Part shown: positions 4,958 through 22,051 of the stretch, in pieces
How positions within the stretch are numbered: position 1 is the stretch's first letter
How the letters are laid out: the number at the start of each line of letters is the position of its first letter
IMG/VR virus record: IMGVR_UViG_3300045911_000278
Coordinates: 1-22,051 of that record
Direction: 5' to 3' (one strand)
DNA: 22,051 nt
From: a virus
Translations under genes and position numbers: made by a program
The notes under the pieces: generated by a model
Databases searched by the model: none
What the model saw: only the letters and a program-made list of their open reading frames with translations
Told to the model about the DNA's origin: nothing

Positions 4958-5497
4958 TTAAAATGCAATTTCAAAAGAATCATATTGTATAGTCATAGTT
5001 ACATTAGCGATTTCATCAGAGCTCATGTCTAAATCACCTCCGTCAAGTTCAGTAATAAAACATCCGTAAAGATAAAATTTTTGTATTACTGCTCCCGTAG
5101 GATCTTCCATATTTAAAACCAACGTTTTCTTATACGTAGCTGCATAACCACCTTTACCTGTTGCAAAGTCAGTATGTTCTCTTTGCCATTGCATTAACTT
5201 TTGATAGATAGATGTGCCAATAGCATCTCTAAAAGTAATTGTAATTGGTTCTACTTTAGTTTTACCTTTATAGAAAGTAGTTAAATTTTTATATTGTACT
5301 TCTACTGGGTTGTTTGATAATTTAGGTCTTGCTGCTTGTACTTGCAAATTCTCAGGTATATTCATCTGTACAGGAAATTCAATAGACCATAAATCTTTTC
5401 TTATTACCTCAAATTGATTAGGTAAAAGAGAAAACATCTGACCTGCGTTTACAATGCCTGTTTTATATGTCTTTAATGTGTTTAAATTAGTTTTCAT
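4958..5497 (-). CDS. Tail tube protein (T4 gp19-like)
   Basis: 179 residues, close to the 163 residues of T4 gp19. The family pattern is present: a beta-rich protein with an N-terminal strand region (NQFEVIRKDLWSIEFPVQMN), a central PITITFRDAIGTSIYQKLMQW helix, TYKKTLVLNMEDPTG, and a C-terminal FYLYGCFITELDGGDLDMSS leading to the ending VTMTIQYDSFEIAF. This matches the phage_T4_gp19/tube family, whose hexamers stack into the inner tail tube through which DNA passes. It is separated from the sheath gene by about 4 kb of other genes, unlike T4 where they are adjacent. An AATATTTAAA element lies 20 bases upstream. Confidence 0.85.
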   Translation of the reverse strand: MKTNLNTLKTYKTGIVNAGQMFSLLPNQFEVIRKDLWSIEFPVQMNIPENLQVQAARPKLSNNPVEVQYKNLTTFYKGKTKVEPITITFRDAIGTSIYQKLMQWQREHTDFATGKGGYAATYKKTLVLNMEDPTGAVIQKFYLYGCFITELDGGDLDMSSDEIANVTMTIQYDSFEIAF

Positions 5498-5517
5498 TAA
5501 GCTTTTTTTTGTTTATT

Positions 5518-5527
5518 TTTAAATATT
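5518..5527 (-). promoter_or_regulatory. AATATTTAAA element, candidate phage promoter
   Basis: Leftward-reading AATATTTAAA, 20 bases before the tail tube start codon. It overlaps the stop codon of the gene upstream of the tube. Confidence 0.3.
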
Positions 5528-6356
5528 ATTTTTTAAATTTGCTTTGATCTTTTTTTTCATATAAAGTAGAAATTGCTTTAAATATTGCGTATAGAATTGG
5601 TGTTCTATTGTTTTTAAACACTTCTATAGCTATGTCGTAAGATTCTGAAGGATTAAGTGCTCGCTGTTTGATTGCTTCTAGTTCTTGTAATATAGCGTTA
5701 TATATTTTTATAGATGGCGCAGTTTCTTCTTCAACTAACTTAACTTTTTTATTAGTTAATTTTTCTAATAAAGTAATATATTTTAATACTTTACTTTCTT
5801 CTAAAAATGTAATATAAAAACTATGATTATCATATACTACATCAAATAATCCACTATCCTCTAATTCCCCTGCCATTTCATTCGCATCATCAATAGTCAT
5901 ATCATCTTCAGGAATTACTTCAAATTCGTTATTACTTAAATAAGTAATCTTTCTTGCTTTATCTCGAAAAGTATTCCATAATACTTTTTTAATTTCTTCT
6001 GGTGTGTAATTTTCTTTCATTTCAGTAACAGTAATGACAGCATCATTAGGATTATTAGGTACAAAATTCTTTTTTCTATGGACTGTAAAAACTTTAAAAA
6101 TTAAATCTTTTCCCTTTTTAATTAAACCACCAACGACAGCTAATCCTCGTTTACCTTTAATTACAAAAGTTTTATACTTATCAGATAATTGCTGAATTTT
6201 ATCTTCAGCTTTATTAATTAAATCTTCTACTTCTTGTCTAAACCAAATTAAAGGCTCACCGCCTCTTTCAATTGCTCTATCTAAAGCATGATGTGACATA
6301 GAAGTAATTAATTCTTCTTTTAACGGCTGACAATTACTCCAATCAACTAATATCAT
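5526..6356 (-). CDS. Unknown protein: DUF4258-like N-terminal domain plus recurring LEKLTNKKV module
   Basis: 276 residues. The N-terminal 100 residues contain SHHALDRAIERGG (21-33), then TFVIKGKRGLAVVGGLIKKG and IFKVFTVHRKK. A leading H-A-x-x-R-x-x-x-R helix followed by strands ending in a V-x-T/V segment is the layout of DUF4258-type domains, related to RelE-like folds; this is a tentative match. Residues about 120-185 form a mixed alpha/beta linker. At 196-210 lies LLEKLTNKKVKLVEE, the short module shared with four other proteins in this window, followed by a helical tail. In the protein encoded at 13641-13967 the same module is also followed by a helical segment of similar character. It lies between tube and sheath genes, so a virion-packaged protein is plausible. 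Confidence 0.65.
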   Translation of the reverse strand: MILVDWSNCQPLKEELITSMSHHALDRAIERGGEPLIWFRQEVEDLINKAEDKIQQLSDKYKTFVIKGKRGLAVVGGLIKKGKDLIFKVFTVHRKKNFVPNNPNDAVITVTEMKENYTPEEIKKVLWNTFRDKARKITYLSNNEFEVIPEDDMTIDDANEMAGELEDSGLFDVVYDNHSFYITFLEESKVLKYITLLEKLTNKKVKLVEEETAPSIKIYNAILQELEAIKQRALNPSESYDIAIEVFKNNRTPILYAIFKAISTLYEKKDQSKFKK

Positions 6357-15252: not shown

Positions 15253-15876
15253 ATGTTTAGTTATAAATTAAATAACATTAAGATACGTATTACACATGAC
15301 CCTATTAATAAAGTTGTAGGTGATTGTTTAATAAATTATACGACTGATAATTTATTAACAGGAGGATTAATGTTTAGGCAAATTCATAGAGAGGGTGGTT
15401 CAGTAATTGCTAAAGATTGTCAAGGACAATTGGTTAAATTTGGTCACGTTACATCTACAGGAGAAAAGAGATTATATATAGGAGAAGGGGTAGTGACTAA
15501 TGCTGGTTTGCTTTTACCTAAAAAACTTATACATATTGTGTGTCCTAATTATAGAAACCCAGAAGAAAATAAAAATAAATTAAATTTATTTCTTACAGGA
15601 ATTAATTATTCTTTTGCATTAATTAATGAATTAAAAATTTCTCATTCAATTCGCAGAGTTATTTATCCTAGTATTTGTACCTCTTTATATGGAACCCCTA
15701 CTAAAGAAGAAATTGTTAAGTTTATAAAAACTATTATTAGTAACGCTCAATCATATGAACTAAAAGAAATTACATTTGTTTGTACTTCTGTTGAAGAATA
15801 TGAACTATATGTTAAATTATTTACTGATACTTATCTTACATTTTGGGATAAATTATATAATAAAATTTTCAAATAA
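15253..15876 (+). CDS. Macro-domain protein (ADP-ribose-binding or -hydrolysing)
   Basis: 207 residues. The macro fold is recognisable from VVGDCLINYTTDNLLTGGLM (21-40) with FRQIHREGG, which lines up with the canonical G-D-I-T...N-x-A-N...G-x-G-G-V-x-x-A-I-H-x-x-G region. Further on are GHVTSTGEKRL, then KKLIHIVCP, and the second ligand loop IYPSICTSLYGTP (137-149). The usual N-A-A-N is changed to N-Y-T-T-D-N, so binding may differ from standard MacroD enzymes. Such proteins bind or remove ADP-ribose from proteins or nucleic acids. It lies 6 bases ahead of the SNF2 helicase gene and is surely co-transcribed with it. The C-terminal 30 residues are less typical. The substrate is unknown. Confidence 0.82.
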   Translation: MFSYKLNNIKIRITHDPINKVVGDCLINYTTDNLLTGGLMFRQIHREGGSVIAKDCQGQLVKFGHVTSTGEKRLYIGEGVVTNAGLLLPKKLIHIVCPNYRNPEENKNKLNLFLTGINYSFALINELKISHSIRRVIYPSICTSLYGTPTKEEIVKFIKTIISNAQSYELKEITFVCTSVEEYELYVKLFTDTYLTFWDKLYNKIFK

Positions 15877-15882
15877 TATTAT

Positions 15883-17442
15883 ATGACTCTTGAAGATAAT
15901 TTAAAAAATTATAAAGGAAAAAACTTATATCTTAATGTATTAAAAGATATAGTATTAAGAGGGGAATCATTATCACCTTCTCAAATAAAAATTGCTGAAA
16001 AATTCTTATTTAACCATGCTACTAAAGAAGAAGATTTGAGTTTAATATCTAGTTCAGAACAAATTAAAGAATTTAATATTGATTGGGAGAAATATAATCA
16101 TAAAAGCCCTTTTTCGTTTCAAAAAGAAGCTGTTAATTGGCTTTTAAATAAAGATAGAGCTATTTTAGGAGATGATCCGGGTTTAGGAAAATCTCTCACT
16201 TCAATAATTGCAGCTTTAGAGTCAAAATCAAAAAAAATTCTCGTTATTTGTCCAGCTACGTTAAAACTAAATTGGGAGAGGGAAATAAAAGTTTTTTGTG
16301 ATGAAGTTACAATAATTGATAAAGAATTTAATACTTCTCGATTTACAATTATTAACTATGATATTTTAAAAAAACATATTGATAATATTTTAAAAGCAAA
16401 ATTTGATTTGGTTATTGCTGATGAAGCGCATTTTTTAAAAAATTATTCATCTAAGCGCACTCGTTATGTTATGAGAATAGCTAATAAAACCCCTAAGATT
16501 TGGTTACTAACTGGAACTCCTATAGCAAATAAACCTATTGACTTTTATACACTTTTAAAAATGTGTAAACATGAATTAGGAAAAAATAAACAATTCTTTG
16601 GTGAAAGATATTGTAAAGGTGAAAGAACGAGATGGGGTTGGGTTTTTAATGGAGCTTCTAATTTAAGAGAATTGCATTTAAAAACTAAAAATATAATATT
16701 AAGAAGAAAAAAAGAAGATGTTTTAGACTTACCACCCAAAACTAGAATTCCTGTTTATCTAGAATTAAAAAACAAAAAAGGATATGATAGAGCATTAGCA
16801 GATTATTATCTTAACAAGTACCAAGACGTTTTAGATGAAGAAACATTAGAATTATTACAGGAAGAAAAAACATTAACAGATAAATTAGTAGAAATAAGTG
16901 TTTTAAGATACTTTACCGCTTTAGAAAAAACACAAGACGGTTCTTTGTTTGAATTAATAGATAGTTATTTAGAACAAGGTAAAAAAATTGTAGTATTTAC
17001 TAACTATCTTAAAGTTATTGATTTAATAAAAGAAAAATATAATAGTCAATGTGTTACATTAGATGGTAGATTATCTTTAGAAGAAAGACAAAAAAATATA
17101 GATTTATTCCAAAACAATTCTGAAGTTAAATTAGTAGCTTGTAATTTAGCTATTGCTTCTGTAGGATTAACATTAACAGCAGCTACTGTTGCAATTATGA
17201 ATGATTTAAATTGGTCTCCGTCTGTTATGATACAAGCTGAAGATCGAATTATGAGAATTGGACAAACTAATGCGGTTGATATTGTATTCCCTATATATCA
17301 AGGAACAATTGATGAAAATATTTTTGATGTATTGCAAGATAAAATGATTAATATATCACAAATTATAGAAGGAAAAATTATTTCATATGTAAATAAAGAT
17401 ATTACTTCAGAAATATATTCTAGATTAAAAAACAAACCCTAA
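15883..17442 (+). CDS. SNF2-family DNA-dependent ATPase/helicase
   Basis: 519 residues with a complete two-lobe SNF2 core. The Q-motif-like FSFQKEAVNWLL precedes Walker A GDDPGLGKS (96-104; SNF2 proteins usually have D-E-M-G-L-G-K-T, so this is a variant). Motif Ia is ILVICPATLKLNW, motif II is DEAH (180-183), motif III LLTGTPIAN, and the second lobe has KIVVFTNYLKVID, then LVACNLAIASVGLTLTAA and motif VI QAEDRIMRIGQ (451-461). The N-terminal 70 residues include a short SPSQIKIAEKFL helix. It resembles the small SMARCAL1-like group that remodels forked DNA. In T4-like phages UvsW-type helicases act in recombination and replication restart, which may be the analogous job. It is followed by a clear terminator. 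Confidence 0.92.
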   Translation: MTLEDNLKNYKGKNLYLNVLKDIVLRGESLSPSQIKIAEKFLFNHATKEEDLSLISSSEQIKEFNIDWEKYNHKSPFSFQKEAVNWLLNKDRAILGDDPGLGKSLTSIIAALESKSKKILVICPATLKLNWEREIKVFCDEVTIIDKEFNTSRFTIINYDILKKHIDNILKAKFDLVIADEAHFLKNYSSKRTRYVMRIANKTPKIWLLTGTPIANKPIDFYTLLKMCKHELGKNKQFFGERYCKGERTRWGWVFNGASNLRELHLKTKNIILRRKKEDVLDLPPKTRIPVYLELKNKKGYDRALADYYLNKYQDVLDEETLELLQEEKTLTDKLVEISVLRYFTALEKTQDGSLFELIDSYLEQGKKIVVFTNYLKVIDLIKEKYNSQCVTLDGRLSLEERQKNIDLFQNNSEVKLVACNLAIASVGLTLTAATVAIMNDLNWSPSVMIQAEDRIMRIGQTNAVDIVFPIYQGTIDENIFDVLQDKMINISQIIEGKIISYVNKDITSEIYSRLKNKP

Positions 17443-17794: not shown

Positions 17795-17947
17795 TATAAA
17801 TAACCTAGTGTTACTAGTAAATATGTTAAAATTAGGTTTGTTATAATACAAAGTGTATTTTTAGCTATTATTTTTATATGCCTGGTGAAAAAAGTACATC
17901 TAATATTTATTCCTTTGTTTGGGTTTGCTAAACATGAAGGAGGTTTG

Positions 17948-19939: not shown

Positions 19940-20028
19940 TTAGAGAATTATTTAATTAAATAGATAATAAAAGTTTTTAAAAAGTGTAATAAAATTTTAA
20001 AGTCAAATTTTAAAGCCAAATATTTATG

Positions 20029-20214
20029 TGTGAACTACCTAAAATTTAAAAAATTATAGGCTTCCTGCAAATTAAACTTTGCAATACATTAGTATTTACT
20101 ACTAATGGCTCGTTCACAGAAGCAAATTAGTTATATTGATAATAACTTATCAATAACTAAACTAATAATATTACAGTAAAGCACCTAAAAGCTAAAGACT
20201 TTTAAGTTTTCTTT
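20029..20214 (+). ncRNA. Candidate structured RNA: four-way junction, HEARO/IS605-like
   Basis: Lies in a 351-base gene-free stretch (19940-20290). TGTGAAC (20029-20035) pairs with GTTCACA (20112-20118), enclosing three hairpins: CCTAaAATTT/AAATTaTAGG (20038-20060), TGCAAA/TTTGCA (20066-20083) and ATTAGTA/TACTAAT (20088-20106). A 14-bp bulged hairpin with a TAAC loop follows (20127-20160), then a weak terminator-like hairpin (20184-20206) with TTTTCTTT. GTGAACTACC-hairpin-GGCTTCCTGC and ACTAATGGCTC recall HEARO (IscB-associated omega RNA) and IS200/IS605 sequences. That match is from memory. No IscB, IsrB or TnpB gene is in the window. A cis-regulatory leader for the gene at 20291 is the main alternative. 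Bases 19940-20028 are AT-rich without clear features. Confidence 0.55.
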
Positions 20215-20245
20215 GGAAAATTATACAAAAAGGTTGTTTGGTTAC

Positions 20246-20282
20246 TTGTTTTAATATATCTTTAGGTAACAAATTAAAACAA
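20246..20282 (+). promoter_or_regulatory. Hairpin just before the start codon at 20291
   Basis: TTGTTTTAAT and ATTAAAACAA form a 10-bp stem with a 17-base loop, ending 8 bases before the ATG. It could hide the ribosome-binding region of the gene at 20291 and so regulate translation. Confidence 0.4.
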
Positions 20283-20290
20283 CTAAAACT

Positions 20291-20797
20291 ATGGCAACTA
20301 AATTAATTAGTACTGAAGAATTAAAAAATATTTTAGCAAACATTAAAGGTGCAACAATGGTAACTGTAACAACTGTTACAGAGCCTAACATGAAAAAAAC
20401 AAATAATCCTTATTTAGGGGTAAAAAAAATCACTACAACGAATTGCACAATTAATTTTATTTATGCAAACAGTGTAAATAATCAACGTGCAAAAGAAGGA
20501 TCTACTACTGATTTTACTCCGTATCCCAGAAAATGGGGACACCGTATACAAGGTACTCCACTTATTGAACATAAAGGTGAATATTATTTAGAAGTAAAAC
20601 CTAATGGAAAACCACAAGATGTAACCTATTCTTTAAACGGAACTATCATTCCTGTAGAAACTTTAAAACCGTTTTTATACGAAAACAAATCAAACGCTGC
20701 TCACCAAGGAGTTGATAAAGAAATTATTGTAAGAGATATTAAATTATCAAATATCTCTCAAATTCAAATGAAAGGTGATTTATTATTAATTAAGTAA
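20291..20797 (+). CDS. Conserved phage protein, function unknown
   Basis: 168 residues, beta-rich. Blocks such as ATMVTVTTVTEPNMKKT, INFIYANSVNNQRAKEG, PRKWGHRIQGTPLIEHKG and YYLEVKPN match a family I recall from many unrelated phages, annotated only as hypothetical. The C-terminal third (VRDIKLSNISQIQMKGDLLL) fits the family too. There is no signal peptide or membrane segment. It has an unusually long leader holding a structured RNA candidate and a hairpin right before its start. The repeat-protein gene follows 30 bases later, probably in the same transcript. Confidence 0.75.
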   Translation: MATKLISTEELKNILANIKGATMVTVTTVTEPNMKKTNNPYLGVKKITTTNCTINFIYANSVNNQRAKEGSTTDFTPYPRKWGHRIQGTPLIEHKGEYYLEVKPNGKPQDVTYSLNGTIIPVETLKPFLYENKSNAAHQGVDKEIIVRDIKLSNISQIQMKGDLLLIK

Positions 20798-20827: not shown

Positions 20828-22051
20828 ATGAAAAATCAAAAAATAATAGCAGAAATTGAAAAAATAATTAAAGAGTTAAACTTAAATTGTACTTTAGAAA
20901 AATTTAAAGATAAAGTAGATTGGACGCGCATTTCAACATATCCAAATTTATCTGGGGATTTTATAAGAGAATTTCAAGATAAAGTAAATTGGTATTGCAT
21001 TTCAATACACCAAAAATTATCTGAAAATTTTATAAGAGAATTTAAAGATAAAGTAGATTGGAGACATATTTCAATACATCAAAAATTATCAGAAAATTTC
21101 ATAAGGGAATTTAAAGACAAAGTAGATTGGAATTATATTTCAACGTATCAAAACCTATCTGAAGATTTCATAAGGGAATTTAAAGATAAAGTATATTGGG
21201 AATGGATTTCAACACATCAAAAATTATCTGAAGATTTTATAAGAGAATTTAAAGATAAAGTAGATTGGTATTATATTTCAGTATACCAAAAACTATCTGA
21301 GGATTTTATAAGAGAGTTTAAAGATAAAGTAAGTTGGTATTGGATTTCAATACATCAAAACTTATCTGAAAAGTTTATAGGAGAGTTTAAAGATTATGTA
21401 TATTGGGATTGTATTTCAATACATCAAAAGTTGTCTGAAAGTTTTATAAGAAAGTTTCAAGATAAAGTAAATTGGAAGTATATTTCAACATATCAAAAAC
21501 TATCTGAAGATTTCATAAGGAAATTTAAAGATAAAGTAGATTGGAATTGTGTTTCAGAATATCAAAAGTTATCTGAAAGTTTTATAAGAAAGTTTCAAGA
21601 TAAAGTAAATTGGGTTTATATTTCAATGCACCAAAACTTATCTGAAAGTTTCATAAGAGAATTTAAAGATAAAGTAGATTGGTATTATATTTCAAAATAT
21701 CAAAAACTATCTGAAAGTTTCATAAGAGAGTTTAAAGATAAAGTAAATTGGGTTTATATTTCAATGTGTCAAAAACTATCTGAAGATTTTGTAAGAGAAT
21801 TTAAAGATAAAGTAAATTGGGATTATATTTCAATGTATCAAAAATTATCAGAAAATTTCATAAGAGAGTTTAAAGATTATGTAAATTGGAAGTATATTTC
21901 AACGTATCAAAACCTATCTGAAGATTTCATAAGGGAATTTAAAGATAAAGTAAATTGGGGTTGCATTTCAATACATCAAAAACTATCGGAAGATTTTATA
22001 AGAGAATTTAAAGACTATGTAGATTGGTGGTACATTTCAATACATCAAAAC
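20828..22051 (+). CDS. Repeat protein of 23-residue units, 3' end cut by window edge
   Basis: 408 residues without a stop, ending exactly in frame at the window edge. A 22-residue N-terminal helix (MKNQKIIAEIEKIIKELN) and one shortened repeat precede sixteen complete 23-residue units (residues 41-408). Each unit reads LSEDFIREFKDKV, then D/N-W, two variable residues, I-S, two variable residues, and Q-K or Q-N. The framework is almost invariant, while the residues after W and after I-S change widely (YC, RH, NY, EW, DC, VY; then IH, TY, EY, KY, MC). A helix-turn-helix solenoid is likely. I do not know a function; modular binding or host-antagonising repeat proteins are the ideas that fit. Downstream extent unknown. 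Confidence 0.8.
   Translation, partial: MKNQKIIAEIEKIIKELNLNCTLEKFKDKVDWTRISTYPNLSGDFIREFQDKVNWYCISIHQKLSENFIREFKDKVDWRHISIHQKLSENFIREFKDKVDWNYISTYQNLSEDFIREFKDKVYWEWISTHQKLSEDFIREFKDKVDWYYISVYQKLSEDFIREFKDKVSWYWISIHQNLSEKFIGEFKDYVYWDCISIHQKLSESFIRKFQDKVNWKYISTYQKLSEDFIRKFKDKVDWNCVSEYQKLSESFIRKFQDKVNWVYISMHQNLSESFIREFKDKVDWYYISKYQKLSESFIREFKDKVNWVYISMCQKLSEDFVREFKDKVNWDYISMYQKLSENFIREFKDYVNWKYISTYQNLSEDFIREFKDKVNWGCISIHQKLSEDFIREFKDYVDWWYISIHQN
20948..22051 (+). repeat. Sixteen tandem 69-base coding repeats
   Basis: 1104 bases equal exactly sixteen 69-base units, all in frame and continuing to the window edge. Units share runs such as AGAGAATTTAAAGATAAAGT and differ mainly in codons for the variable residues. 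High similarity suggests ongoing homogenisation and copy-number change. Confidence 0.92.

Follow-up and report, generated by a model that had tools for sequence, protein, structure and literature searches.

A 117-aa ORF and a 168-aa ORF of a virus are separated by a gap of 351 bases (19940-20290): what kind of RNA, if any, lies there, on which strand is it read, and to which gene system does it belong? The ORFs are those of the ORF listing of the window, by which we mean the whole stretch of DNA analysed, 22,051 nt of IMG/VR record IMGVR_UViG_3300045911_000278. A preliminary description of the gap, made by reading the sequence, had proposed a plus-strand four-way-junction RNA of the HEARO or omegaRNA type, consisting of an outer stem around three hairpins, a further 14-bp hairpin and a weak terminator. 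The outer stem (6-7 bp) and the three hairpins that it encloses are present in the gap, as is the additional long hairpin, with an A/T-rich palindrome beyond it; no terminator-like site was found. The region 20020-20240 folds at -42.5 kcal/mol (z -3.3), a value equalled by none of 200 shuffles. Within it, 20030-20168 folds at -32.6 (z -7.1) on the plus strand and at -35.0 (z -5.5) on the minus strand, and because both strands fold strongly, folding alone cannot assign the strand of the RNA. A tRNA/tmRNA search of the window found none, and DNA similarity to cultured phages amounted to a 34-nt chance match with Synechococcus phages.

The proposed likeness of the motif GTGAACTACC-hairpin-GGCTTCCTGC to IS200/IS605 RNAs proved correct. 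Viral sequences yielded 90 stretches with this 20-base spaced pattern, and genomes at least 120, most of them with the same spacing and context. Read on the opposite strand it becomes GCAGGAAGCC-hairpin-GGTAGTTCAC, which we take to be the right end of TnpB-type elements. The proposed plus-strand RNA thus has to be turned round: the pattern is an omegaRNA 3' end in reverse complement, which puts the RNA on the minus strand. Among the pattern matches, a body of the window type occurs in five viral loci (L013, L024, L030, L057 and L065); in L013, both phage and site are those of the window, and the other four have flanks of their own. The structured patch is a homologue, by both sequence and structure, of the RNA found at tnpB 3' ends; it overlaps the end of the tnpB coding sequence and stops at a transposon right end, with flanking DNA after it. 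Its identification as the 3' domain of a TnpB omegaRNA (reRNA) on the minus strand is well supported.

The preliminary description had suggested a search for covarying homologues in related phages, and these were found. Seven tnpB 3' ends from other phages were aligned without gaps (alignment A5), and a covariance model (R1) was built from A5 alone, so that the window was in neither the alignment nor the training set. R1 matched the window at 20119-20029 on the minus strand with 63.2 bits (E 3.5e-17); the cognate tnpB-linked copy in L030 scored 68.7 bits. In A5, 17 of the 32 pairs changed on both sides and 94.2% of cells were paired; shuffles reached 77.1% and slid controls no more than 45%. 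RNAalifold, run unaided on A5, returned an identical structure. In 23 copies aligned by the model (A8), an alignment that leans towards the model, covariation extends to 24 of 32 pairs, with 97.5% of cells paired. Covariation was counted on A5 and A8 because MAFFT alignments of window-type copies with distant tnpB ends (A2, A3 and A4) misplaced hairpins 1 and 2, owing to differing loop lengths.

The four-way junction is found at the 3' end of nearly every tnpB gene in 21 viral TnpB loci, with outer stems such as GTGAAC/GTTCAC, ATGAAC/GTTCAT, ATGACA/TGTCAT and CTGATA/TATCAG, and the sense strand gives the better fold in 19 of 21 sequences. Short copies of the element show the changes GAAGCC to GAAACT (L030b, L227) and TAGG to CGGG (L065), and some of the hairpin 3 changes in these three copies stay paired, as G-U, only in the minus-strand RNA. 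Both the sequence and the G-U pairs speak for the minus strand. The four-way junction is real on that strand, at 20117-20030, with one broken pair in hairpin 3 of the window copy (Table 1).

Table 1. Parts of the element and associated sites, with their positions in the window.
Feature	Position	Strand	Remarks
Element-free site matching the guide of the L065 copy	17797..17816	-	Preceded by ATTTAC
Remainder of the AT-rich stretch of 90 bases outside the right end that the sister phage lacks	19940..20009		
Would-be guide ACATAAATATTTGGCTTTAA	20010..20029	-	Flank immediately following GTTCAC; placed by analogy with ISDra2 reRNA (PMC8612924)
omegaRNA 3' domain, four-way junction	20030..20117	-	R1 match, covariation
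P1 outer stem	20112-20117 with 20030-20035	-	GTGAAC/GTTCAC
Hairpin 1	20088-20106	-	Part of omegaRNA 3' domain
Hairpin 2	20066-20084	-	Part of omegaRNA 3' domain
Hairpin 3	20037-20061	-	Part of omegaRNA 3' domain
tnpB 3' end remnant YQYN*FASVNEPLVVNTNVLQSLICRKPIIF*	20046..20141	-	Against YQDNHLASVNEPLVVTTNVLQSLICRKPIIL* of intact L030 TnpB
Long hairpin, apparently the product of a core deletion in an upstream helix of the tnpB 3' region	20127..20165	-	
Left-end-like terminal palindrome CAAAGAAAAC-TTAAAAGTC-TTTA-GCTTTTAG	20184..20225	-	Dispersed left-end matches in L226, L057, L227, L065 and L030

On the minus strand these parts stand in the order left-end-like palindrome, core-deletion hairpin, the last ~30 tnpB codons with their stop, the RNA, GTTCAC and a 20-nt flank. 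The long hairpin was interpreted by comparison with L030, L057, L226 and L065: it matches a tnpB region from which ~36 bases have been deleted (L030 against L057 and L226), and a related upstream helix is predicted in tnpB genes. The palindrome gives a weak match to R1 (20.3 bits) and may be a fused left and right end. Its outer flank is TTTGTATAA in the window, and TTTATAA at the same place in other copies; the fuller short copies open with the left end after TTTATAA (CTCAAAGAAAACCTAAAAGTCTTTAGCTTTTAG). The window has lost the ~120 bases that separate the palindrome from the RNA in other copies and is thus a further-deleted copy. TTTAT or TTTAC is proposed, from the flanking sequences, as a candidate TAM.

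Short copies without tnpB occur in L226, L030 (4.5 kb), L057/L024, L227 and L065. All end in GTTCAC, the flank after it varies from site to site, and the copies adjoin unrelated genes. They are short and transposase-free and carry IS605-like terminal palindromes, with end motifs common to the L030 contig and the short copies; they are also dispersed (L226, L030, L057, L227 and L065) and vary in presence between close strains. The stretch from ~20225 to 20030 on the minus strand (~196 bp) is probably a core-deleted, non-autonomous IS200/IS605-type element of a T4-like phage, resembling a PATE (palindrome-associated transposable element) or a 'ghost' element. A search for other phages with the window guide sequence returned a single, unrelated chance match (L272).

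Presence and absence could be followed in a sister phage (L065/L213), whose proteins are 97-99% identical to those of the window. Its gap between the same two genes measures 66 bases, against 351 in the window; it keeps the gene at 20291 (99% identical) and the hairpin upstream of that gene (20232-20280), without the element. The 90 bases beside the element (19940-20029), which may have arrived together with it or been lost in the sister phage, are also missing from that phage, and the empty site here is not clean. Conversely, L065 bears a copy of the element where the window bears none, and the 20 bases that follow GTTCAC in that copy are identical (20/20) to 17816-17797 of the window, minus strand. 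This agreement between an occupied flank and an empty site fixes the boundary of the right end, and means that a guide from the L065 copy would match the empty site in the window. The hairpin at 20232-20280 is itself a ~50-base module upstream of the 168-aa gene; modules of this type are dispersed upstream of other genes in L030 (1310-1363, 1623-1676 and 10323-10358) and are perhaps a phage promoter or terminator unit.

As the preliminary description had observed, no nuclease gene stands beside the RNA in the window. The window and its sister contigs, G001 and G005, all three of them fragments, contain neither TnpB nor TnpA. The preliminary description had also suggested looking for TnpB elsewhere in the genome; the nearest contigs carry none, and an intact gene is present in L030 (contig 3300045922_000782), which comes from the same sample series as the window and also carries two short copies of the element. 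The L030 protein (406 aa) contains OrfB_IS605 (E 7e-11) and Cas12f1-like TNB (E 7e-8) domains and resembles ISDra2 TnpB over residues 2-374 (E 2e-7). Searches with it gave 21 viral loci, the other proteins being 48-59% identical; in cultured phages, the best among the matches listed were 25-28% identical.

In all members of the protein alignment (A1) Gly279 replaces the canonical RuvC-II Glu and Glu329 is invariant, and the zinc-finger Cys pairs are missing in the phage clade. A repositioned catalytic Glu defines the 'E-alt' TnpBs and Fanzors (PMC10711439); here, too, the RuvC-II Glu is lost and a conserved Glu stands shortly before the zinc-finger position, the zinc finger itself being lost. 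Judged by its sequence, the TnpB is a member of an uncultured phage clade that lacks the zinc finger and has its catalytic Glu repositioned. That it acts as a nuclease is uncertain, because the canonical RuvC-II Glu and the zinc-finger Cys pairs are missing. Two large relatives, G015 and G019, have homologues of the window tail sheath, the L030 baseplate-like protein and TnpB on a single contig, so one phage can hold all three; the window and L030 may belong to one genome. A Y1 TnpA was found in G008, G010 and G022, in the last of which it adjoins a clade tnpB, and in none of the fragments of the window phage. Relative G019 (contig 3300043436_004687, 339,635 bp), a jumbo-phage contig, carries eight tnpB genes.

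We propose that copies of the element would be moved in trans by Y1 TnpA. In this model, a minus-strand transcript would serve as an omegaRNA scaffold, with P1 closing the three hairpins and the flanking 16-20 nt acting as guide, and the phage TnpB would bind this transcript in trans. RNA and protein together would cut element-free copies of the insertion site, and repair would restore the element, giving a homing or gene-drive effect. We infer that the RNA works in trans with an L030-type TnpB because functional ghost omegaRNAs are known elsewhere, and transcription, TnpB binding and cleavage are likewise predicted by analogy. By the same analogy, the likeliest role of the RNA would be that of a trans-acting guide belonging to a non-autonomous element that is, or recently was, mobile. 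TnpB has been described as a gene drive in plasmids (PMC11870625). A speculative and rather improbable extension is that one phage TnpB is served by dispersed ghost omegaRNAs with different guides, each targeting the element-free allele of its own site, as a multi-guide gene drive. If that were true, element-bearing phages would, at co-infection, cut and convert, or exclude, their sister phages.

Other explanations of the structure have to be weighed against a TnpB guide RNA. One is a HEARO RNA left behind by an absent IscB or IsrB, a type to which the preliminary description had likened the structure. What speaks for HEARO is a general resemblance; the scan with its model (RF02033) gave no match at any threshold in the window, the gap or the window's own record, though in a locus of a relative (L231) it recovered a genuine HEARO with 109 bits. 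Homologues of the RNA lie at the 3' ends of tnpB genes; the RNA belongs to TnpB, and we give an IscB/IsrB origin next to no probability. Searches of the window and the gap against the whole of Rfam at permissive thresholds yielded chance matches to miRNA, snoRNA and sRNA families only; canonical TnpB right ends are also absent from Rfam, and a missing Rfam match therefore says nothing against a TnpB RNA. Of the first interpretation, an orphan guide-type RNA and IS200/IS605 relic without an adjacent nuclease stands, the type being OMEGA; HEARO and the plus strand do not. The same description had considered a domesticated cis-regulator, and a plus-strand regulator or leader RNA of the 20291 gene would suit the position of the element directly upstream and its strong plus-strand fold. 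The sister phage, however, keeps this gene and the hairpin at 20232-20280 without the element, other copies of the element sit by unrelated genes, and the strand evidence given above favours the minus strand. The 66-base gap of the sister phage makes the element dispensable for the gene at 20291, of which the RNA is not an obligate regulator, and a cis-regulatory role is very improbable.

The main rival, which we consider somewhat unlikely, is an inert relic: a decaying PATE whose fold persists only through its youth and which makes no RNA and serves no function. The stop and the core deletion in the tnpB remnant would suit a relic, as would the apparent loss of part of the left end and the fact that the sister phage manages without the element. 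Scans of both strands for sigma-70 and Bacteroidota-type promoters, which gave nothing convincing, only chance-level signals, would suit it too. Against it, the RNA part of the window nearly matches the tnpB-linked copy (63.2 against 68.7 bits), and the copies L030b, L227 and L065, which have no coding frame in common, preserve hairpin 3 pairing in the minus-strand RNA through some G-U changes.

Several known systems come close to the proposed element. PATEs of the IS200/IS605 group are known from Haloquadratum (PMC3119063) and Halanaerobium (PMC7290912), and share with the present copies their short length, the lack of a transposase and terminal palindromes akin to those of an IS605-type element. 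In the Halanaerobium PATE, 28 nt of the left end and the final 58 nt of tnpB remain together with the right end (PMC7290912), as do their counterparts here; PATEs consisting of exactly a left end, the last tnpB codons and a right end are thus already known (PMC7290912, PMC3119063). The present copies differ in their phage host, and in that the retained right end is a covarying omegaRNA domain; their mobilization is presumed. Ghost Spu-1 elements, or ghost omegaRNAs, support Fanzor activity in trans (PMC10432273) and likewise comprise omegaRNAs without a nuclease gene at many loci with differing flanks, whereas here the host is a prokaryotic virus, the nuclease is TnpB and not Fanzor, the RNA architecture is another and the system is known from sequence. 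In ISDra2, RNAs of ~150 nt derive from the tnpB 3' end and the right end and take ~16 nt of the flank as their guide, and the donor joint is cut by TnpB (PMC8612924). An RNA of this origin with a guide drawn from the flank is common to both systems; unlike ISDra2 TnpB, the phage TnpB has no zinc finger and a repositioned Glu, and compared with canonical right ends among the pattern matches, two extra hairpins here create a four-way junction. The IS200/IS605_NA MITEs of eukaryotic viruses (PMC6004678) are also non-autonomous IS605-type elements with TnpB-only partners, but here the host is a bacteriophage, no terminal inverted repeats are reported and the guide RNA is retained.

As far as the literature was searched, what is new is the occurrence in a phage, the four-way-junction architecture and the association of that architecture with the zinc-finger-less E-alt clade. 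These features extend ghost omegaRNAs and PATEs to bacteriophages, and add to the omegaRNA architectures a four-way junction that overlaps coding sequence and is missing from Rfam. The homing or gene-drive idea can be put to a direct test in pairs of sister phages that are set apart by single copies. The locus also warns that what looks like an RNA structure between phage genes may be a transposon end seen on the wrong strand.

A second family of short orphan elements was seen in the same phages, at L030 9739-9826, L065 8835-8922 and L269 (G001:14529-14616). It has a more conventional TnpB right end, CCAAGAAGCC-hairpin-GG.ACTTCAC, and some copies are nested with or abut the first family; a TnpB for it was not found. 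Stand-alone TnpB-type right ends are also present in other tnpB-bearing phages (L262, L264 and L265, in G017 and G016), where no tnpB reading frame was seen directly upstream. In L231 (1003-2448), a full HEARO RNA (109 bits) directly precedes a 448-aa IscB-like HNH protein, immediately upstream of a truncated clade tnpB, so that two OMEGA systems adjoin on one phage contig. L232 contains a GOLLD RNA at 5185-5599 (279 bits), ~1.5 kb downstream of a clade tnpB. Elsewhere in the window are a FolE2-like GTP cyclohydrolase (3-1025), a Macro-domain protein followed by a SNF2-type helicase (15253-17442), and a long protein with ~24-residue repeats (FIREFKDKVDW.YIS..QKLSE) that runs off the window (20828-22051); in the sister phage (L065), the repeat protein is 630 aa long and is accompanied by a short duplicate.
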